This document shows, piece after piece, positions 12,649 to 58,751 of a DNA stretch of 64,000 nucleotides (the stretch's first letter is position 1; every line of letters begins with the position of its first letter). The notes beneath the pieces are model-generated. The model was not told the DNA's origin and searched no databases. It saw only the letters and a program-made list of their open reading frames with translations. The DNA comes from an uncultured Sphingomonas sp. (GTDB taxonomy: Bacteria; Pseudomonadota; Alphaproteobacteria; Sphingomonadales; Sphingomonadaceae): contig NZ_CALMPA010000070.1 in assembly GCF_937871615.1 (NCBI RefSeq), positions 1-64,000 of the forward strand, in the 5' to 3' direction. The translations under genes were made by a program, and so were the position numbers.

Positions 12649-14310
12649 ATGAAAGCCATTCACCTGCTGGCCCGCGCGGGCCTGATCGCGCTTTTCCCGC
12701 TCGCCATGCCGCTTTTCGCGCAGGAAAAGACGCCTGCCGAGGTGAACGCGCTGGTCAACGCGCCGCTGCCTGCCGATCAGGCCGCGCTCAAGGCGCATGT
12801 CATGTTCCTCGCATCCGACGCGATGAAGGGGCGCGAGGCGGGGAGCGGCGAATATGACATCGCCGCGCAATATGTCGCGTCGCGCTTCTATGCTGCGGGG
12901 TTGCGGCCCGGTGGCGACGCGGGGGGCTATCTTCAGGCGGTGCCGCTGGTCAGCTATCGCCCCGATGGCGGCGGGCGCGTGGTGCGGACCATGGGCGGGA
13001 AAGCGGAAACGCTGGTGGCGGGAACGGATTATGCCGCGCTCGCCGATCCGCATCGCGCGAAAGTGTCGCTAAGCGGGGAAATCGTCTTCGTCGGCTTCGG
13101 CGTCTCCGCGCCCGATCGCGGGCGGGATGATTATGCGGGCGTGGATGTGAAAGGGAAGATCGTCGCGGTCCTCCCCGGCGCGCCACGCGATATGAACGCC
13201 GAGGAGCGCGCCTATCTCGGCGGCGGCGATGCCAAGGCGAAGGCGGCGGCGGCGCATGGCGCGATCGGCGTGATCCTGCTCGCGACGCCCGGCAGTGCTG
13301 AAAAGGCGCCGTTCGAGCGCACCGCCGAGCGCACCGCCAAACCGCGCATGACCTATGCCGAAGCGGACGGGACGGGGCATGGCGACGCGCCGATCCCGAC
13401 GGTCGCGACGTTCAGCGAGGCGGGCGCGGCAAAGCTGTTCGCGGGCGCGCGCACGCCCTGGGCCGCGCTGGTGAAGGAAGCGAAGAAGAAACTGCCGCGC
13501 TATACCGCCGAGGCGCTGCCCGGCGTGGTGGAGCTTGAGAGCGCGAGCAGCTATGGCAAGGCGGCGTCATCCAATGTGATCGGCGTGATTCCGGGGCGCG
13601 ATCCGGCGCTGGCGAAAGAGGTGCTGGTGCTCTCCGCGCACCTCGATCACATCGGCGTCACCGCGCCCGATGAGAATGGCGATGCGATCAACAACGGCGC
13701 GCTCGACGATGCGATCGGCATCGCCAGCCTGATCGAGGAGGCGAAACGCTTCAAGGCGCAGCCGCCGCGCCGCACGATCCTGTTCGTCGCCTTCACCGCC
13801 GAGGAAAAGGGGCTGATCGGCAGTGCCTGGTTCACCGCGCACCCGACCGTGCCGATTGGCGAAATCGTGGCGGATGTGAACCTCGACATGCCGATCCTCA
13901 CCTACAGGTTTGAGGATATGGTGGCGTTCGGCGGGGACCGCTCGACGCTTGGGCCGGTGATCGCACGAGCCACCGCCGCGATCGGCGTTACCATGTCGCC
14001 CGATCCGATGCCGGACGAGGCGATCTTCGTGCGATCCGATCATTTCAACTTCGTGCGGCGCGGCATCCCCTCCGTCTTTCTGTGGCCGGGCGAGAAGGGG
14101 CCGGGGAAGGACGCGACCTCGACGTTCATGTCGAAACATTATCACCGCCCGTCGGACGATCTGACCCAGCCGATCATGTGGGATCAGGCGGTGCGCTTCG
14201 TCGATGCCAATTATCGTATCGCGCGCGAGATCGCCGATGCCGATGCGCGGCCGGTGTGGAACAAGGGCGATTATTTCGGCGCGCTGTTCGGTGGGCCGAT
14301 GGCGCGGTGA
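12649..14310 (+). CDS. secreted M28 family metallopeptidase with PA domain
   Basis: This is a 553-residue zinc aminopeptidase-like enzyme. A signal peptide covers about the first 24 residues (cleavage near LFAQ). A protease-associated insert follows (about 140-260, with GKIVAVLPGAP), and then the M28 catalytic domain: His331 and Asp333 in SAHLDHIG, Asp353 in NGALDDAIG, and Glu385-Glu386 in FTAEEKG. The product is probably periplasmic or outer-membrane-facing and trims peptides. The start at 12649 is supported by the signal peptide. It lies back to back with pepN; a shared peptide-degradation role is an inference. Confidence 0.88.
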   Translation: MKAIHLLARAGLIALFPLAMPLFAQEKTPAEVNALVNAPLPADQAALKAHVMFLASDAMKGREAGSGEYDIAAQYVASRFYAAGLRPGGDAGGYLQAVPLVSYRPDGGGRVVRTMGGKAETLVAGTDYAALADPHRAKVSLSGEIVFVGFGVSAPDRGRDDYAGVDVKGKIVAVLPGAPRDMNAEERAYLGGGDAKAKAAAAHGAIGVILLATPGSAEKAPFERTAERTAKPRMTYAEADGTGHGDAPIPTVATFSEAGAAKLFAGARTPWAALVKEAKKKLPRYTAEALPGVVELESASSYGKAASSNVIGVIPGRDPALAKEVLVLSAHLDHIGVTAPDENGDAINNGALDDAIGIASLIEEAKRFKAQPPRRTILFVAFTAEEKGLIGSAWFTAHPTVPIGEIVADVNLDMPILTYRFEDMVAFGGDRSTLGPVIARATAAIGVTMSPDPMPDEAIFVRSDHFNFVRRGIPSVFLWPGEKGPGKDATSTFMSKHYHRPSDDLTQPIMWDQAVRFVDANYRIAREIADADARPVWNKGDYFGALFGGPMAR

Positions 14311-14338
14311 TACGTGTGACGGCGCCGCGGCACATACG

Positions 14339-15163
14339 ATGACCCGGCTGTTCGTCTTCGGGCTGGGCTATGCCGCGCGCGCGATCGTCGCGGCGAGCGG
14401 CTGGCCCGCGCTGGGGACAACGCGAGACGGCCGCGACGGCACGATCCGTTTCGATGACGCGGATGCGGTGCGCGCCGGGCTGGCTGCTGCGACGCATGTG
14501 TTGTCGAGCGTGCCGCCGGATGCGGCGGGCGATCCGGTGCTGGCGCGTTATGGCGCGCTGCTCGGCGGGCGTAGGCTCGGCTATCTTTCGTCAACCGGCG
14601 TCTATGGCGATACGCGCGGCGCGTGGGTGGATGAGTGCACGCCGATCGGCGGCGGGCGGCGCGGCGCGCGCGCGGCGGCGGATGCCGCCTGGCTGGCGCA
14701 TGGCGCGCGGGTGTTTCGCCTGCCGGGAATTTACGGGCCGGGGCGCTCCCCGCTCGATCGGGTCCGCGCCGGCACCGCGCACCGTGTCGATATCACAGGG
14801 CAGATATTCAGCCGCATCCATGTCGCCGATATCGCTAGCGGGGTGATCGCCGGGTTCAATGCGCCGGCGGGAGCGTACAATCTCGCCGACGATCTGCCCG
14901 CGAGCCAGAATGAGGTGGTGGCCTATGCCGCCGCATTGCTCGGGCTGCCGCCGCCGCCGCTGGTTGCGCTTGATACGCTCTCGCCCGCGGCGCGCGGCTT
15001 TTATGCGGAGAACCGCCGCGTCGCGACGGGCAAGGCGAAGCGCGTGCTCGGCTGGGCGCCGCTTTATCCCGATTATCGCGCCGGCCTGCGCGCGGTGAGC
15101 GCGATGACGAGGCCGGCCCCGGCCAGCGCCGCGCCGCCGATCGCCAGCGGCGACCAGCGATAG
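14339..15163 (+). CDS. SDR / NAD-dependent epimerase-like protein
   Basis: This is a 274-residue Rossmann-fold protein. It starts FVFGLGYAARAIV, a GxGxxA-type nucleotide motif, and keeps YLSSTGVYGD and FRLPGIYGPGRSPLDRV, which are typical of atypical extended SDRs of the YeeZ kind. The canonical YxxxK pair is not obvious, so catalysis is uncertain. The start ATG at 14339 is 28 bases after the M28 stop and has no strong ribosome-binding site. The last 91 bases overlap the 3' end of the convergent EamA transporter gene, an unusually long tail-to-tail overlap. Confidence 0.8.
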   Translation: MTRLFVFGLGYAARAIVAASGWPALGTTRDGRDGTIRFDDADAVRAGLAAATHVLSSVPPDAAGDPVLARYGALLGGRRLGYLSSTGVYGDTRGAWVDECTPIGGGRRGARAAADAAWLAHGARVFRLPGIYGPGRSPLDRVRAGTAHRVDITGQIFSRIHVADIASGVIAGFNAPAGAYNLADDLPASQNEVVAYAAALLGLPPPPLVALDTLSPAARGFYAENRRVATGKAKRVLGWAPLYPDYRAGLRAVSAMTRPAPASAAPPIASGDQR

Positions 15164-18991: not shown

Positions 18992-20755
18992 GTGGCCGAT
19001 GCAGCCTGGGATCTGGTGATTCGCGGCGGAACGATCGTCGACGGATCGGGCGGAGAGCCGTTCGAGGCGGATGTCGCGGTGGCCGATGGCACGATCGCGG
19101 CGATCGGCAGGATCGCCGGGCGCGGACGCGAGGAGATTGACGCGCGCGGGAAGATCATCACCCCCGGTTTCGTCGATGTCCACACCCATTATGACGGGCA
19201 GGCGACCTGGGACGAGCGGCTCCAGCCCTCATCATGGCATGGCGTTACCACCGTGGTGCAGGGCAATTGCGGCGTCGGCTTCGCGCCGTGCCGTCCGGAC
19301 GATCGCGATCGGCTGGTCTATCTGATGGAGGGGGTGGAGGATCTGCCCTATCCGGTGCTAACCGCCGGGCTGCCGTGGAACTGGCGGAGTTTCCCCGATT
19401 ATCTCGATGCGTTGGGGCAGCGCCGCTTCGATCTCGATGTCGCGACGCAACTGCCCCATGCGGCGGTGCGCGTGCATGTGATGCGTGAACGCGGCGTGGC
19501 GCGCGAGCCGGCGACGGCGGACGATATCGCGCAGATGGCGGCGATCGCGCGCGCGGGCGTGGAGGCCGGCGCGCTCGGCTTCTCCACCAGCCGCACGCTG
19601 AACCATCGCACCAAAGCGGGCGAGCCGACCCCGACGCTGACGGCGGAGGAGGATGAACTGACCGGCATCGCCATGGGGCTCGCCGCCGCCAATGGCGGGC
19701 GCGGCGCGGGGGTGTTGCAGCTCGTCAGCGATTTTCATCCCGATGCGGCGGGCGAATTCGCGATGTTTCGCCGCATCGTCGAGAAATCTGGCCGGCCATT
19801 GAGCTTCAGCCTCGCGCAGAGCCATCAGGCGCCCGATTCGTATCGCATGATCCTGGATTGGCTGGGGCAAGCGGTGGATGCCGGGCTGCCGATGAAGGCG
19901 CAGGTCAGCGCCCGCGCGGTGGGGGTGCTGTTCGGGCTCGATCTGACGGCCAATCCGTTCAGCGGGCACGAAGCCTATCGCGAGATTGCCGCCTTGCCGG
20001 TTGCCGCGCAGCTCGCCCGGCTCCGCGATCCCGCCTTCCGCGCACGGCTGCTCGCCGAAACGCCTGATCCGCGCGGGCCATTCGCGAGCGCCAATCTAAC
20101 CGCCTGGGCAGGCATGTACCCGCTCGGGCCGGAAAGCCCCGATTATGAGCCGACGCCGGACCGCACGGTCGCCGCGATCGCCGCCGCGCAGGGGCGGGAG
20201 CCGCAGGAAGTGGCGCTCGATCACCTGCTGTCTAACGACGGGCGCGGCATCCTGTATCTGCCGTTCCTGAGCTATGGCTATGGCTCGCTCGACGCATCGC
20301 ATGAGATGATGCTGCACCGTGATACCGTGCCCGGCCTGTCCGATGGCGGCGCGCATGTCGGGATGATCTGCGACGGCAGCTTTCCCACCTCGCTGCTCAC
20401 CCATTGGACGCGCGATCGCACGCGCGGGCCGAAGTTGTCGCTGCCGTTCGTGGTTAAGCAGCAGGCCGCTGATACCGCCGCGCTGGTTGGGCTGGGCGAC
20501 CGGGGCATGATCCTGCCGGGGCTGCGCGCCGATCTCAACGTGATCGACTATGACAATCTCACCCTGCTCGCGCCGGAGGTGATCCATGACCTGCCGGCGG
20601 GCGGGCGGCGGCTGATGCAGCGCGCGCGCGGCTATGTCGCGACGATCGTTGCCGGGCAGATCACCTATCGCGATGGCGAGCCGACCGGCGCCTTGCCGGG
20701 TCGGCTGGTGCGCGGCGCGCGCGGCACGCCGGCGGCGCGACGTTTCGCGGCATAA
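18992..20755 (+). CDS. amidohydrolase, N-acyl-D-amino-acid deacylase family
   Basis: This 587-residue metal-dependent hydrolase starts with a small beta domain (LVIRGGTIVDGSG) and then the TIM-barrel metal site H64-T-H66-YDGQATWD, as in D-aminoacylases. QGNCGVGFAP and GLSDGGAHVGMICD are also family motifs. I chose GTG 18992 because GAGGAGAGG (18978-18986) gives proper spacing to it and not to the GTG at 18986. The substrate is unknown; homologues hydrolyse N-acyl-D-amino acids or other cyclic or acyl amides. It is the first gene of a six-gene same-strand block with CoA-dependent enzymes. Confidence 0.85.
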   Translation: MADAAWDLVIRGGTIVDGSGGEPFEADVAVADGTIAAIGRIAGRGREEIDARGKIITPGFVDVHTHYDGQATWDERLQPSSWHGVTTVVQGNCGVGFAPCRPDDRDRLVYLMEGVEDLPYPVLTAGLPWNWRSFPDYLDALGQRRFDLDVATQLPHAAVRVHVMRERGVAREPATADDIAQMAAIARAGVEAGALGFSTSRTLNHRTKAGEPTPTLTAEEDELTGIAMGLAAANGGRGAGVLQLVSDFHPDAAGEFAMFRRIVEKSGRPLSFSLAQSHQAPDSYRMILDWLGQAVDAGLPMKAQVSARAVGVLFGLDLTANPFSGHEAYREIAALPVAAQLARLRDPAFRARLLAETPDPRGPFASANLTAWAGMYPLGPESPDYEPTPDRTVAAIAAAQGREPQEVALDHLLSNDGRGILYLPFLSYGYGSLDASHEMMLHRDTVPGLSDGGAHVGMICDGSFPTSLLTHWTRDRTRGPKLSLPFVVKQQAADTAALVGLGDRGMILPGLRADLNVIDYDNLTLLAPEVIHDLPAGGRRLMQRARGYVATIVAGQITYRDGEPTGALPGRLVRGARGTPAARRFAA

Positions 20756-31415: not shown

Positions 31416-31418
31416 GCG

Positions 31419-31572
31419 CCTGGGGCCGGCGCGACATTCAGCCCATGCCGGCCTGCAAATGGCGGTTTCCCGCGCTTTGCCGGTGCTCACGTACCTTTGG
31501 TACGCTGCGCTTGCGGGTCATGAGAAACCACCATTTTCGGCTCGACCTGACCGGAATGCGTCAGCCCCAGGC
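31419..31572. repeat. 154-bp imperfect palindrome between trmJ and tRNA-Phe
   Basis: The ends are perfect complements (GCCTGGGG at 31419-31426, CCCCAGGC at 31565-31572). The centre is CGTAC-CTTTG-GTACG (31490-31504), and the arms share further blocks such as AAATGG(C/T)GGTTTC. The symmetry centre coincides with the midpoint of the outer ends, so this is one large palindrome of about 75-bp arms with mismatches. It fills nearly all of the space between the two genes. Confidence 0.7.
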
Positions 31573-31620
31573 GTGCAATTCGCTGCGCGCCGATGGGGAG
31601 GCATCATCCGGGAAAAGGGG

Positions 31621-31696
31621 TGGTGCCCAGGGACGGGATCGAACCGCCGACACTGCGATTTTCAGTCGCATGCTCTACCAACTGAGCTACCTGGGC
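31621..31696 (-). tRNA. tRNA-Phe (anticodon GAA)
   Basis: This is a 76-nt tRNA on the minus strand with encoded CCA. The acceptor stem pairs GCCCAGG with CCTGGGC, the D arm has AGCTCAGTTGGTAGAGC, and the T arm has GGTTCGATCC. The anticodon loop CTGAAAA on stem TGCGA/TCGCA gives GAA. It lies 29 bases downstream of yacG on the same strand and may be co-transcribed from the infA operon. Confidence 0.97.
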
Positions 31697-31725
31697 ATAA
31701 CCGACGAACGCCGGAGCCGCGCTCT

Positions 31726-31902
31726 CTAGTCGGGGTCTTTGCCGCTGTCCAGCCCGTTCGGCGCGATCGTCGAACCGGGCAGGCGATATCCTTCACCCAG
31801 CCATTGCAGCAGATCGCGATCCTTGCAGCCACGGCTGCAAAACGGGGCATATCCGGGCGCGGTGGGGCGGCGGCAGATGGGGCAGGTGGCTTTCGTCATC
31901 AT
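31726..31902 (-). CDS. yacG: DNA gyrase inhibitor YacG
   Basis: This 58-residue zinc-binding protein has the four YacG cysteines in CPIC and FCSRGC, followed by KDRDLLQWLGEGYRLPG. YacG binds GyrB and inhibits gyrase. The start ATG overlaps the rng stop (ATGA) on the minus strand; a second ATG one codon later is equally possible. It is the last protein gene of the infA-maf-rng-yacG run. Confidence 0.9.
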   Translation of the reverse strand: MMTKATCPICRRPTAPGYAPFCSRGCKDRDLLQWLGEGYRLPGSTIAPNGLDSGKDPD

Positions 31903-54469: not shown

Positions 54470-55387
54470 ATGAACGATCCTATGCCGAGCGAAACCGCCG
54501 CGCGCCGGCCGCGGGTCGGGCTGGTGACGATTTTTATCGTGCTGGCCTTTGCCATCGGCATCGCGCTGATGTTTTTCGCGATGCGCAATTCGGGGGGATG
54601 GTTCATCCACACCCCCGCAGCCAACCCGCCGGCCCCTGCCGCCGCCCCTGCCGAGCCACAGCCGGTCGCGGCGCCATCCCCATCCTCACCCGCCCCGCCG
54701 CCCGATCTCGACGGGCTGGCGACGCGCGAAACTGCGCTTGCCGCGCAACTCGCCGCGCTGGAGGCGCGCGCGGCGGAGATCGGCAGCACCTCCGCCGCCG
54801 CCGCCACGCAAGCCAGCCGCGCGGAGGCGATGATGGTCGCCTTCGCCACGCGCCGCGCGATAGATCGCGGGCTGCCGCTTGGTTACCTTGAGGTGCAGTT
54901 GCGCGAACGCTTCGGCAAGATCGCGCCCGGCCCGGTGGCCACCGTCATCCAGGCGGCGCGCCAGCCGGTGACGATCGCGGCGCTACGCCAGGCGCTGGAC
55001 AATAGCGCCGATGTGCTCATCAACGGCGATGACGGCTGGCTGGAGGGGCTGAGGCTTCAGCTTGGCAAGCTCGTCATCCTGCACGATGCCAACACCCCGT
55101 CGCAGCTTCCCGGCGAGCGGCTGGCGCGTGCGCGGCGGCTGCTCGAATCCGGGCAGGTGCAGGCGGCGCTGGGGGAGGTGTCGCGGCTGCCCGGCGCGGC
55201 GGATTCGGGCAATTGGGCGGTCGCCGCGCGGCGCTATGTCGATGCGCATCGCGCGCTCGATGTGATCGAGGCGGCGGCGCTGATGCTGCCGCCGCCTGTG
55301 CCGGTGAAGCAGGATGAGGCTGATGCCGCCCCGGCGCCTGTGCCTGCGCTCGCGCAGATCGCGCCACCGCCGCCGGACGTTATCTGA
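54470..55387 (+). CDS. mitofilin/Mic60-like membrane protein
   Basis: This 305-residue protein has a short cytoplasmic N-terminus, one membrane helix (about 16-39), a Pro/Ala-rich periplasmic linker, a short coiled-coil segment (about 80-120) and a C-terminal mitofilin-like region (about 170-265, ADVLINGDDGWLEGLRLQLG to VAARRYVDAHRALDVI). Alphaproteobacterial Mic60 homologues lie next to hemD and shape the inner membrane. This one is shorter than average and ends in a Pro-rich tail. Its last eight bases overlap the convergent DUF72 gene. Confidence 0.82.
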   Translation: MNDPMPSETAARRPRVGLVTIFIVLAFAIGIALMFFAMRNSGGWFIHTPAANPPAPAAAPAEPQPVAAPSPSSPAPPPDLDGLATRETALAAQLAALEARAAEIGSTSAAAATQASRAEAMMVAFATRRAIDRGLPLGYLEVQLRERFGKIAPGPVATVIQAARQPVTIAALRQALDNSADVLINGDDGWLEGLRLQLGKLVILHDANTPSQLPGERLARARRLLESGQVQAALGEVSRLPGAADSGNWAVAARRYVDAHRALDVIEAAALMLPPPVPVKQDEADAAPAPVPALAQIAPPPPDVI

Positions 55388-56177
55388 CGCGCTCGATCAG
55401 CGCCATCGCGCCATGCGGAGCACGGATCTTGGCGCCGTTGATGAAGAATATGAACGCATCGCGTGGCGCGCGCGTCATTTTCGATGGATCGACATAAGGC
55501 AGGTTTTTAGGCGCGTCGCCCGCCGCCCATTGGTGCGCCGCGCCAGCCCAGCGATCGAGCGCGGCGGGGGTATAGCCCGCCGGCTCCTCCTCCACGGCAT
55601 TTTCCAGCCGGGCATAAGTGAAATCGCCCGTCACATCGGCGATCGCGGGATAACCGGCTGAATCGGCATAGACGATCGCCACGCCCGCCGCGCGGCACAT
55701 CGCGATAAAGGCGGGATCGGCAAAGGATTCGTGCCGCACCTGCACCGCATGGCGCAGCGAGACGCCGGCATGATCTGGCGGCAGCAATTTCAGGAATGCC
55801 GCGAAATCATCGGCGTCGAACTTCTTGGTCGCCATGAATTGCCACAGGATCGGCCCGAGCTTGGCCCCCAGCTCCACGATCCCCTGCCCGACGAAGCGGG
55901 CGACCGATTCGCCGGCCTCCGCCAGCACCTTGCGATTGGTGCAGAAGCGCGATGCCTTGAGCGTGAAGACGAAGCCGTCGGGCACCGCGTTTGCCCAGTT
56001 GGCGAAGGTCGCGGGTTTGAAGCCGCTGTAATAGGTGCCGTTGATCTCGATCGCGGTCAGCTTGCCGGCGGCATATTCCAACTCGCGCTTCGCGGGCCAT
56101 TTCGCCGGATAGAAGCTGTCACGCCATGGCTCATAGGTCCAGCCGCCGATGCCGATGCGAATCCTGCCTGTGCTCAT
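55380..56177 (-). CDS. DUF72 family protein
   Basis: This 265-residue TIM-barrel-like protein starts IRIGIGGWTYEPWRDSFYP, the classic opening of DUF72/YecE proteins. It also carries EINGTYYSGFKPATFANW, VQVRHESFADP and the C-terminal YVDPSKMTRAPRDAFIFFING. The function is unknown. It ends eight bases inside the mitofilin-like gene on the opposite strand and starts a few bases from a 272-bp palindromic element. Confidence 0.9.
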   Translation of the reverse strand: MSTGRIRIGIGGWTYEPWRDSFYPAKWPAKRELEYAAGKLTAIEINGTYYSGFKPATFANWANAVPDGFVFTLKASRFCTNRKVLAEAGESVARFVGQGIVELGAKLGPILWQFMATKKFDADDFAAFLKLLPPDHAGVSLRHAVQVRHESFADPAFIAMCRAAGVAIVYADSAGYPAIADVTGDFTYARLENAVEEEPAGYTPAALDRWAGAAHQWAAGDAPKNLPYVDPSKMTRAPRDAFIFFINGAKIRAPHGAMALIERVR

Positions 56178-56180
56178 TGC

Positions 56181-56452
56181 CTAGGGTCCAAACTCGATCA
56201 GCGCAGCGTCGTGATCGCCCGGAGAAGTCCGCTGGCAAGGAGCGTAGCGCAGCCGCGTAGCTGATGCTACGCGCAAGCAAGCGACGCCGTCCAGCGGACT
56301 TCTCCGGGCGACCCCTTCGGGGCGGGCGGATTTTGGTGTCATGCGGCGTCGCGCGTCGGTCACGATGGAACCCCATCGCTCCCTCCTTGCTCCTTGCCTG
56401 ACGCCAAAATCCGCTCCGTCACGGCGCTGTGCTGATCGAGTTTTGACCCTAG
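56181..56452. repeat. 272-bp multi-stem palindromic element
   Basis: An outer inverted repeat of 34 bases (56181-56214 with 56419-56452, 31 positions matching, CTAGGGTC at both extremes) encloses two further stems. The first is perfect over 21 bases (56215-56235 with 56291-56311). The second matches 15 of 16 bases (56326-56341 with 56399-56414). One strand could fold as a multi-branched structure. It lies between DUF72 and pbpC, the only gap over 300 bases in the window (56178-56606). A structured RNA, a non-autonomous mobile element or a regulatory fold are all open. Confidence 0.85.
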
Positions 56453-56530
56453 CATAGCAGGAAAATGCGGCGCGGGCGTTGGCCGCGTCGCGTGATACGC
56501 ATCGACGCGGCCGGTGCCGTTTGCGCAACA

Positions 56531-56556
56531 CCGGCCCCCAAAGGGATAGGGGCCGG
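56531..56556 (-). terminator. possible hairpin downstream of pbpC
   Basis: CCGGCCCC (56531-56538) pairs with GGGGCCGG (56549-56556) around ten bases. A second stem, GGCCGCGTCG/CGACGCGGCC, lies at 56481-56512. Both follow the pbpC stop on the minus strand but lack T-tracts. Confidence 0.3.
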
Positions 56557-56606
56557 GTCGTCAACGCGCGATTCCCGCTGGGGTTCGCGGGCGACGAGAA
56601 ATCCGT

Positions 56607-58751
56607 TCAGCGTACCGTAAAAGTCACACGGTCGACGATGCGCCCGGCAAGATCGACCAGCGCCAGTTGATGCTTGCCCGGTGCGGGGAAGATCGGGGCG
56701 ATCGTGTCGGCGGCGCCCAGATCGCGCGCATCGAGCCGCAGCCGGTGCGCCGCCGCCGCCCCTGTCACCGCCACGGACAGCCGTTGCCGATCGCGCGGGA
56801 TATCGGGATCGAGCGCATAGACGCTGCCCGAAACGGGCGTGGCGATGCGCGGGCGGCGCGCTTCCGCTGGCGCCGCATCGGCGCGCGCGAAGGAGGTGCC
56901 GGCGAGGAACCATTCGCGGCGGGGCTGCTCACGCGTGCCCGCGAACGTCACCTGTCGCGCCTCGATTCCGGCGGGCGGGGGCGGGGGCGGGGCGTGGCCG
57001 GCGCGCGCGCCGTTCAGCGCGAGCATCACATCGCGCCATACCGGCGCCGCGCCGCTCGTCCCCGAAACGGCGCGCATCGCATCACCCTCGACATTGCCGA
57101 CCCACACCGCCACCGTGAAGCGATCGGAAAAGCCGACGCACCAATTGTCGCGCATCGCCTTTGACGTGCCGGTCTTCACCGCCGCCCAGAACGGCAGCCT
57201 GAGCGCCGAATCGAGCCCGAACGTGCCCGCGCGCGCCACCGGGTCCGACAGCATGTCGCCGACGATCCACGCCGCCGCCGGGGTGGTGATCGCGCGCGCG
57301 GGCTGATGCGGGTCCGCCGCCGTCAGCCGCAGTGGGGACCAGCGCCCGCCCCGCGCGAGGCTGCGATACGCCGCCGCCTGCTCCGCCAGCGTCACCTCCG
57401 CCGAACCGAGCGCGAGGCTGAAGCCGTAATAAGCGCCATCCTCCACCAGCCCGCGATAGCCCGTGTCCCACAGCCGGTCGCGGAATGGCTCGACGCCGAC
57501 CAGCAGCAGCGTGCGCACCGCCGGCACGTTGAGCGATCCCGCCAGCGCCGCGCGCGCGGAAACCGGCCCCTTGAACGCGCGATCGTAATTCTGCGGCACG
57601 TACAGCCCGGACGCGGTGTCGAGCTGCACCGGCGAATCGTCGAGGATCGAGGCAGGCGTGAGATAGCCCTTCTCGATCGCCTCGGCATAAAGGAACGGCT
57701 TCAGCGTCGATCCCGCCTGGCGATAGGCGTTGGCCGCGTCCACCGCCGGGGCGGTGGAATTGCCGCCGATCCCGCCGACATAGGCGAGCACGTCGCCGCT
57801 CGCATTGTCGACCACGATCACCGCGCCATCGCGCGCGCGGGTCGCGCCAAGCCCCAGAAGCTGGCGGCGCAACGCGGCGATCGCGATGCGCTGGACATTG
57901 ATATCGAGCGTGGTGGCAACGCGCATCCCAGGCTTCTGGAGCAGCCGGTCGGCAAGATGCGGCGCCAGCCCCGGATCGAGCGCGAGGCTGCGCGCCGGGC
58001 CGAGCATCGAGGCGGCTAGCGCGGAATAGCGCGCGCAATTCTTGTCCCGCGCCAGCGCGCAGGCGCGGCGTGCGACGCGATTCGCTGGCGCCTGCGGATT
58101 GGGGAGCAACGCCGCCAGCAGCAGCGCGTCGTCGCGGGTCAGCGCGGCGGGCGTCTTCCCGAACAGCCCGAGCGCGGCGGCGCCGATCCCCTGCGCCTCC
58201 CCGCGAAAGCCCGCGAGATTGAGATAGGCTTCGAGGATCTGGTCGCGGCTCCATGTCTCGCCGATCGTTCGCGCCGCCCTGATCTGGCGCAACTTGTCGC
58301 GCCAGCCGCGCGCGCCGGGCCGGGCGAGATCGGGCGCGAGGAAACCGGCGAGTTGCATCGCGAGCGTACTCGCGCCGCGCGGGCGCTTGCCGGTGATCCG
58401 ATCGCGCAGCGCGCCGCCCAGCGCGAGCCAGTCGACCCCGGCATGATCGGCGAAGCGCCGGTCCTCCGCCGTGACGATCGTGGTGCGGGCGATCGGCGCG
58501 ATCCGGTCGAGCGGGGTCCATGCCAGCCGCCGCGTGGCGAAATCGACGCGCGAGGAATCGAGCAGCACGCCGTTACGGTCGTAAAGCCACGCCTCCGATG
58601 GCCGCCACGCCGCACGCACCTGCGCATAGCCCGGCAACGGGGGCGGGCGGGTGAACCAGTCGGCGAGGGCGAACAGCGCCGCCGCCAGCAGGATCGCCGC
58701 GACCGGCCACGCGCGCCGCGCCGGGCGGGCAGGCGCGCGCCCGTCGCTCAC
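56607..58751 (-). CDS. pbpC: penicillin-binding protein 1C
   Basis: This is a 714-residue class A PBP of the PbpC type. A short cytoplasmic tail and one membrane helix (about 14-33) precede the GT51 glycosyltransferase (TAEDRRFADHAGVDW, GASTLAMQLAGFL). The transpeptidase has nucleophile Ser348 (STLK), SLN in AGSLNVPAVR and KTGTS. The C-terminal about 100 residues form the extra BiPBP_C beta domain of PbpC proteins. It starts on the stop of the alpha-2-macroglobulin gene (ATGA), so the two are co-translated. Confidence 0.95.
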   Translation of the reverse strand: MSDGRAPARPARRAWPVAAILLAAALFALADWFTRPPPLPGYAQVRAAWRPSEAWLYDRNGVLLDSSRVDFATRRLAWTPLDRIAPIARTTIVTAEDRRFADHAGVDWLALGGALRDRITGKRPRGASTLAMQLAGFLAPDLARPGARGWRDKLRQIRAARTIGETWSRDQILEAYLNLAGFRGEAQGIGAAALGLFGKTPAALTRDDALLLAALLPNPQAPANRVARRACALARDKNCARYSALAASMLGPARSLALDPGLAPHLADRLLQKPGMRVATTLDINVQRIAIAALRRQLLGLGATRARDGAVIVVDNASGDVLAYVGGIGGNSTAPAVDAANAYRQAGSTLKPFLYAEAIEKGYLTPASILDDSPVQLDTASGLYVPQNYDRAFKGPVSARAALAGSLNVPAVRTLLLVGVEPFRDRLWDTGYRGLVEDGAYYGFSLALGSAEVTLAEQAAAYRSLARGGRWSPLRLTAADPHQPARAITTPAAAWIVGDMLSDPVARAGTFGLDSALRLPFWAAVKTGTSKAMRDNWCVGFSDRFTVAVWVGNVEGDAMRAVSGTSGAAPVWRDVMLALNGARAGHAPPPPPPAGIEARQVTFAGTREQPRREWFLAGTSFARADAAPAEARRPRIATPVSGSVYALDPDIPRDRQRLSVAVTGAAAAHRLRLDARDLGAADTIAPIFPAPGKHQLALVDLAGRIVDRVTFTVR

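Follow-up and report, generated by a model that had tools for sequence, protein, structure and literature searches.

A 272-bp palindrome of Sphingomonas, probably a MITE-like transposon that targets TA and keeps a folded single-stranded core

The 64,000-nt stretch of Sphingomonas DNA analysed here (the window) contains a 272-bp palindrome at 56181–56452, which raises the question of what kind of object it is. A preliminary description had reported three inverted repeats, one pair enclosing the two others, and had suggested a non-autonomous mobile element, a structured RNA or a recombination substrate. The evidence described below indicates that the palindrome is probably a full-length copy of a MITE-like, TA-targeting transposon, with a core that selection is likely to maintain in folded, single-stranded form. 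The coordinates and repeats were borne out from the sequence: the outer arms are complementary at 31 of 34 positions (Table 1), the perfect 21-bp pair lies at 56215–56235 and 56291–56311, the pair matching at 15 of 16 positions lies at 56326–56341 and 56399–56414, and CTAGGGTC stands at both outer ends; longer, looser extensions of the inverted repeats were also found. In the predicted fold, the outer pair encloses the two others as a closing stem around two long hairpins, A and B.

The palindrome had also been placed in the only large gene-free gap, which holds for gaps longer than 250 nt in the window. Three such gaps were returned by a rough home-made gene caller (used for gaps, insertion context and stop codons), which missed at least one real-looking ORF (14204–15163); two of the three are explained away, 14311–15072 being covered by that ORF and 31416–31898 containing tRNA-Phe. 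The ATG of the flanking DUF72 gene is only 3 nt from the element, and 154 nt separate the element from the end of the PBP1C-type gene on its other side, where more short palindromes occur (56480–56560). A simple scan of 56100–56700 with one promoter type found no sigma-70-like site and no terminator-like site; promoters in the element ends, an idea that had come from gene-start proximity alone, were rejected. The Rfam 15 covariance models gave no match at E ≤ 1 in 55800–57000, and at Rfam gathering scores the whole window yielded two tRNAs only.

Folding both strands, as had been proposed, placed each of them well below 200 dinucleotide shuffles in energy: one strand reached −188.7 kcal/mol (z −14.4) and the other −187.6 kcal/mol (z −15.6), and for neither strand did any of the 200 shuffles come as low. 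The fold of the window element comprises a 33-bp closing stem (P1) and hairpins of about 97, 11 and about 96 nt, with no unpaired base between the four helices, thus forming a perfect four-way junction. The P1 5′ arm of this copy begins C-TA-GGGTCCAAACTCGATCAG, and hairpin A has a perfect 21-bp base and the inner loops GGCAAGGAGC...GCGACGCC. The covariance model of hairpin B (model R1), which was built from 25 sequences including the window copy, matched hairpin B of that same copy at 56320–56423 on the minus strand (117.4 bits, E 1.6e-25). It also matched hairpin A on the opposite strand (56210–56314, plus strand, 47.3 bits, E 7.5e-9), and likewise in many other copies, so that A and B are apparently an inverted pair of one hairpin type. 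A near-palindromic hairpin scores on its opposite strand too (39.5 bits for hairpin B), so the 47.3 bits of hairpin A alone are not decisive for this homology. At two other loci (L065 1608–1712 and L118 2575–2678), hairpin A scores in the orientation of B, as if inverted within its own stem. A further weak R1 match in the window (20328–20420, 17.8 bits, E 0.08) is probably due to chance. Coding by the element core was rejected, the apical loop of hairpin B differing by single bases among copies.

Table 1. Parts of the element and flanking genes in the window
Feature	Position	Strand	Basis or remark
P1 5′ arm: TA-flanked terminal inverted repeat and inner stem	56181..56214	.	31/34 complementary to 56419–56452; aligned family ends
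Left TA of presumed target duplication, within CTAG	56182..56183	.	Sister-copy empty sites; end profile
Hairpin A, 97 nt, sense on plus	56215..56311	+	Fold; covarying helix 5; model R1 match
Mini-hairpin CCCCTTCGGGG, between both long hairpins	56312..56322	.	Helix 4: 100% of cells paired, 23 elements
Hairpin B, 96 nt, sense on minus; conserved G·A mismatch ladder	56323..56418	-	Model R1 match
P1 3′ arm: TA-flanked terminal inverted repeat and inner stem	56419..56452	.	Reverse strand CTAGGGTCAAAACTCGATCAGC
Right TA of presumed target duplication, within CTAG	56450..56451	.	As for left TA
Flanking gene, DUF72 protein	55380..56177	-	Pfam PF01904, E 3.8e-57; not part of element
Flanking gene, penicillin-binding protein 1C-type	56607..58751	-	Transgly, Transpeptidase, BiPBP_C; not part of element

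A search for copies, which the preliminary description had proposed, found many of them, and the palindrome is not single-copy. The draft genome to which the window belongs (3.99 Mb, 71 contigs, G000) gave 31 blastn matches, which fall at 16 places, and of these C41:36878 is likely to be a chance match; about 15 places hold the element or fragments of it, and further solo ends were also found. A second full copy, 88% identical, lies on contig C59, and the other copies of this genome lack hairpin A, hairpin B or both. Derived copies with missing hairpins comprise 188-, 173-, 166-, 53- and 51-nt forms, the two shortest being those without either hairpin. With the 272-bp sequence as query, the element was present in 12 of 41 genomes (the own genome and relatives). 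Counting the own genome each time, model R1 matched in 78/151 genomes of the genus, with up to 18 matches per genome, in 51/296 genomes of the order (18/79 genera) and in 21/385 genomes of the class (19/276 genera). A rigid-motif scan of named genomes found, among the matches listed, Sphingomonas (e.g., S. gilva), Sphingopyxis, Erythrobacter, Croceibacterium, Sphingosinicella and Aureimonas. The motif is also present in four loci labelled Bacillus sp. 2B10 (L267, L269, L272 and L298), which may be mislabelled or come from a mixed assembly. Plasmid and phage collections gave no match to the element, nor did an exact-motif search of viral contigs, and carriage by plasmids or phages was rejected. 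A literature search on sphingomonad MITEs and palindromic repeats, with most subscription papers outside its reach, returned no description of the element.

The loci analysed below are mostly the best-scoring ones returned by the searches, rather than a random sample. Two of them were entered twice (L094/L122 and L104/L124), so the counts of 113, 104, 95, 78 and 65 each hold at most two repeats; the doubly entered loci were left out of the arm-identity, G·T/A·C and stop-codon counts.

At 272 bp the element is too short for a transposase, and it carries terminal inverted repeats, as MITEs do. In 104 of the 113 places with hairpin B, the two outer arms complement each other over at least 14 of 18 positions. 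TA is found on both sides of 54 of the 95 anchored copies and on one side of the other 41, where the anchoring of ends itself presupposed at least one flanking TA; a pyrimidine (C or T) precedes the left TA in 83/95, and a purine (G or A) follows the right TA in 84/95. The conserved AG and GG within the arms outscore TA (89 and 73 vs. 54), so a dinucleotide table is no clean control for TA. CTAG is found 10 times in the window where base composition would give 187, making it about 19-fold rarer than predicted, and the CTAG ends of the element are thus unusual words here.

Target-site duplications had likewise been proposed as a check, and TA flanks were found together with some empty sites that read YTAG or CTAA at the junction. 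At the site of the C59 copy, the flanks are joined at YTAG without the element in four of 12 relative loci (CTAG in three, TTAG in one), while six show other length changes and two do not cover the junction. At the site of the copy on contig C11, the junction reads CTAA in one relative and CTAG in another, with gaps in the aligned flanks. Both of these copies with clean empty sites have lost their left TA (CTCAG and CTGGG). For a copy that keeps both TAs (L110 of genome G076), relative G020 reads TTAG at the junction, the alignment ending four bases later. All six loci compared for the site of the C62 copy lacked a clean junction. The syntenic relative G007 is without the element at the position that it occupies in the window. 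In G076, three copies (L107, L108 and L109) are identical over 190 nt with unrelated flanks, and a fourth (L106), also in unrelated flanks, differs from them by one base. It is therefore well supported that the element is interspersed, has recently been mobile in a relative and ends at TA in YTAR contexts. In the same genome, L112 and L113 have a common left flank (58/60) and different right flanks, as if copied with neighbouring DNA.

The element arms also resemble the ends of insertion sequences (IS) of the genus. The TA-flanked ends of IS5-family (DUF4096) IS read TAGGGTCAGGACCCATTGAT (G076) and TAGGGTCCGGACTCAT (G056), and those of IS630-family IS read TAGAGCGGTTT...; the terminal repeats TAGGGTCAGGACCCAT, TAGGGTCCGGACTCAT and TAGAGCGGTTTTCGA of these IS are equal or nearly equal to element arms, whereas the IS themselves code for a transposase, are 745–1360 bp long and have no four-way core. 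When ten IS end sets were compared with the elements, 51 of 95 elements agreed with the end of an IS in at least 11 of 14 nt, vs. about 0.9 per replicate when the IS ends were shuffled after their first three bases. One of the ten sets comes from a putative IS of the own genome and accounts for 18 of the 51 matching elements. This IS-like end is identical to the window P1 3′ arm at 21/22 nt and to the P1 5′ arm at 20/22 nt, stands at three contig ends of G000 (the end of C25 and the starts of C41 and C47), and, with up to three mismatches allowed, was absent from all 294 other genomes of the genus that were searched. About 54 nt of it are seen, at contig ends only, and its coding part is absent from the assembly, so the IS is placed in the IS5 family tentatively, with TAGGGTCAAAACTCAATCAG as its presumed ends. 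An insertion sequence present in several copies in G000 seems to have been collapsed and lost from the assembly.

The ends of the window copy read TAGGGTC and resemble IS5-type ends; a derivation of the window copy from IS630/Tc1-mariner, with its TAGAGC-type ends, was rejected on this reading, and IS630-type ends occur in short relatives and in some long elements. IS5-group elements can duplicate TA. IS5-group transposases would move copies with TAGGG... arms, such as the window copy, in trans and duplicate TA, and IS630-group transposases would do the same for copies with TAGAGC... arms. Against such an action, DUF4096 (PF13340) was detected in 11 of 15 genomes tested, with none in the copy-rich G089, and DDE_3 (IS630) in three of six genomes tested, with none in the copy-rich G076 or G089. 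TA duplication by an IS630-family element is documented in one report, whose reference list also contains a title on CTAG preference of insertion (PMC2170065). The two types of arms around one core suggest, as far as sequence comparison goes, an exchange of ends between transposase families. The earlier suggestion of a non-autonomous mobile element is supported by the multiple copies, by the TA/CTAG ends and their likeness to IS ends, by the empty state of some orthologous sites and by the identity of copies that lie at unrelated sites, and the window palindrome is very probably a mobile, TA-targeting element of this kind.

The insertion sites are often stop codons. A gene called by the home-made caller ends exactly at the element-proximal TA(G) in 32 of 91 insertions, and 36 of the 38 stop-codon sides read TAG and two TAA. 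YTAR sites outside the element in the same loci comprise 31 stop codons, 141 intergenic and 81 coding sites, so that 32/91 compares with 31/172 (18%) of the stop-or-intergenic sites (p 1e-4, a value that ignores relatedness). Since the element starts with G after TA, insertion into a TAG or TAA stop yields TAG again, which would leave the host gene unharmed. At the C59 site, a minus-strand gene is called as ending in the TAG, and the empty relatives, judged by eye, have TAG or TAA there. The two arm types and the restored TAG together suggest how a passenger may persist in gene-dense genomes.

More generally, 58 of 89 gene-end-facing sides lie within 25 nt of the gene end, and 26 of 92 gene-start-facing sides within 25 nt of the gene start. 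This proximity, along with the strong single-strand fold and its covariation, would suit a resident structured RNA, i.e., an immobile cis-regulator or small RNA spread by descent or duplication. However, the genes around copies are found in all four orientations, empty sites exist, identical copies have unrelated flanks, the ends are IS-like and Rfam gave no match, all of which make a resident RNA very improbable.

Mobility of the element leaves the question of its interior, which is a conserved perfect four-way junction of P1, hairpin A, the 11-nt hairpin and hairpin B. A closing stem with three branches, mostly of about 96, 11 and 97 nt, was obtained in 65 of 78 minimum-energy folds of long elements; 12 of the remaining ones have two branches and one has none. 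Twenty-three of the 29 full-length elements, all preselected for the three-branch fold, were aligned by sequence alone, and six class-level elements were left out as too diverged for such an alignment. In it, 96.3% of the cells of the 96 predicted pairs do pair, and 65 of the 96 pairs show two-sided changes, vs. a mean of 40.3 after shuffling and 30–36 in slid versions. The covariation is 0.508, vs. 0.147 shuffled and at most 0.082 slid. The preliminary description had regarded a single copy without compensatory changes in the stems as evidence against a conserved element, and the opposite was clearly found. P1 alone has two-sided changes in 28 of its 31 pairs, showing that the arms differ among copies and yet still pair; the mean identity of the P1 5′ arms of 63 elements is 49%. 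The four junction pairs are invariant in all 23 elements.

Across the class, two-sided changes were found in 31 of 32 pairs of hairpin B, in an alignment of 88 rows (88 of 92 loci, with L092, L246, L247 and L248 left out) that was made to the model, so that its pair counts lean towards structure. The A·G/G·A mismatches at positions 5, 7 and 18 of hairpin B are kept in 84, 82 and 79 of 88 rows and become canonical in 0, 0 and 2 rows, respectively, and the other five A·G/G·A positions are kept in 69–78 of 86–88 rows. For all eight positions, a canonical pair appears in 0, 0, 1, 7, 6, 8, 2 and 3 of 86–88 rows. Among class-level loci with enough flank, 12 of 15 have arms and a palindrome of 264–276 nt, the others being L238, L244 and L248.

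Covariation of this kind might also be produced in an ordinary palindromic MITE with a functionless fold, whose arms are kept complementary by template switching or gene conversion and whose ends are kept by the transposase. Covariation is indeed seen in all long stems, also outside the terminal repeats, and both the hairpin loss in the derived copies and the orientation of hairpin A in L065 and L118 are what DNA hairpin events would give; template switching (palindrome correction) could be the source of part of the covariation. However, arm copying would turn the mismatches into pairs, yet the G·A/A·G positions persist class-wide, while the junction pairs stay invariant and the length is held; thus, the covariation is not ascribed solely to arm-to-arm copying. 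In addition, G·T outnumbers A·C by 36:7 in the B stems on the B-sense strand (counted in 56 of the 88 rows, those of exactly 104 nt), which strand-symmetric copying does not predict. A functionless fold is therefore unlikely.

On the same strand, 63 elements gave G·T:A·C ratios of 15:29 in the A stems (p 0.05) and 36:57 in P1 (p 0.04), so that A and P1 lean to the other strand than B, the numbers being weak, the p-values ignoring relatedness and selection by model or fold possibly biasing the counts. Each long hairpin may be selected on its own sense strand. Of the earlier suggestion of a structured RNA, the part that stood is the fold, which is strongly kept by compensatory change in a way that suits RNA and single-stranded DNA alike. 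That the fold is functional and selected, acting as RNA or single-stranded DNA, appears likely. As RNA, the core could be under selection because the element becomes the immediate 3′ or 5′ UTR of a neighbouring gene; alternatively, it could be selected as single-stranded or cruciform DNA that serves the propagation of the element.

In the usual view, MITEs are remnants of IS and their hairpins incidental. In this family the sequence of the stems changes, while their pairing, the dimensions of the fold and particular non-Watson–Crick positions stay, so that the question of a function of a MITE core becomes directly testable. A bolder reading, put forward tentatively and with somewhat less than an even chance, is that the folded core rather than the transposon ends is the heritable unit, an alphaproteobacteria-wide, Holliday-junction-like single-strand device in which a perfect four-way junction is combined with the G·A mismatch ladder. 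Such a core would persist by riding within the ends of transposase families unrelated to one another and gaining new ends as IS turn over, its two inverted hairpin copies would let either strand show one sense copy, and it would do a job as RNA or single-stranded DNA, for the element or for the host. The covariance model, which represents a repeat family with no Rfam match, would also serve annotation.

Among the known repeats, the two apparently homologous inverted hairpins recall BIMEs, which, like the element, contain inverted pairs of palindromes (PMC3733652). That the element is a REP/BIME composite dispersed by a REP-associated tyrosine transposase (RAYT) is nevertheless scarcely credible and was rejected as largely refuted: PF01797 (Y1_Tnp) has no match in G000, a draft rated 100% complete, whereas five of 14 control genomes were positive, the ends are TA-flanked with IS-like terminal repeats and have no GTAG tags, and the hairpins of about 97 nt compare with the 20–40 bp of REPs. 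By the published account, REPs measure 20–40 bp and carry a GTAG or CGTC tag that is unpaired; those with CGTC occur mainly in Alphaproteobacteria, have stems of 8–9 bp and lack a known transposase (PMC3733652). A CGTC-tagged REP (20–40 bp, CGTC tag, 8–9 bp stem and CCA tail) was likewise rejected, the hairpins of the element being 96–97 nt long within a closed junction. The Br-REP1 and Br-REP2 palindromes of Bradyrhizobium are described as short 3′-UTR palindromes of about 20–40 nt; Br-REP1, like the element, is alphaproteobacterial and lies inside a repeat with three palindromes, i.e., three stem-loops, whereas the passages available mention neither TA ends nor a four-way closure for either, the comparison being one of descriptions (PMC5082802).

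The 63 long elements are poor in GANTC, the sequence that CcrM methylates in Alphaproteobacteria, with seven sites vs. about 57 expected in mononucleotide shuffles; it is absent from 57 of them and scattered in the other six. This bears on the CIR repeats of Caulobacter and Brucella, which have two arms, a linker and, in a terminal loop, a GANTC site according to a paper citing Chen and Shapiro 2003 (PMC2229807). A diverged member of CIR would agree with the element in being alphaproteobacterial and intergenic, in ending at TA and in having two long hairpin arms with a linker between them. However, the defining GANTC site is missing from most elements, the length is 272 vs. about 110 bp, i.e., more than twice as long, and the closing stem P1 is present here and absent in CIR by that description (PMC2229807); membership thus fails on the defining site, was rejected and is highly doubtful.

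Correia, ERIC and RUP are TA-ended repeats with stem-loops closed by both ends, and RUP has ends in common with IS630-Spn1, by the same source (PMC2229807). ERIC/IRU, Correia/NEMIS and RUP are, like the element, small and mostly intergenic, with TA ends and palindromic transcripts (PMC2229807, PMC10969869), and the published descriptions, as far as available, set them apart as repeats of about 100–200 bp with one stem-loop. In contrast, the element has a closed perfect four-way junction, two long similar hairpins and class-wide compensation, and its arms resemble IS5 as well as IS630 ends.

Two type II copies of G076 lie at other palindromic sequences. A CGTC-tagged palindromic pair (CGTCATTGCGAG.../...CTCGCAATGACG) stands in the left flank of L106, beside the copy. 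L109 splits a second palindromic repeat at its centre (CCCCGGAC-TA-GATCCGGGG); removal of the element and one TA gives CCCGGACTAGATCCGGG, and the uninterrupted 17-mers CCCGGACTTGATCCGGG and CCCGGACCTGATCCGGG, of the same length, occur among the fetched loci.
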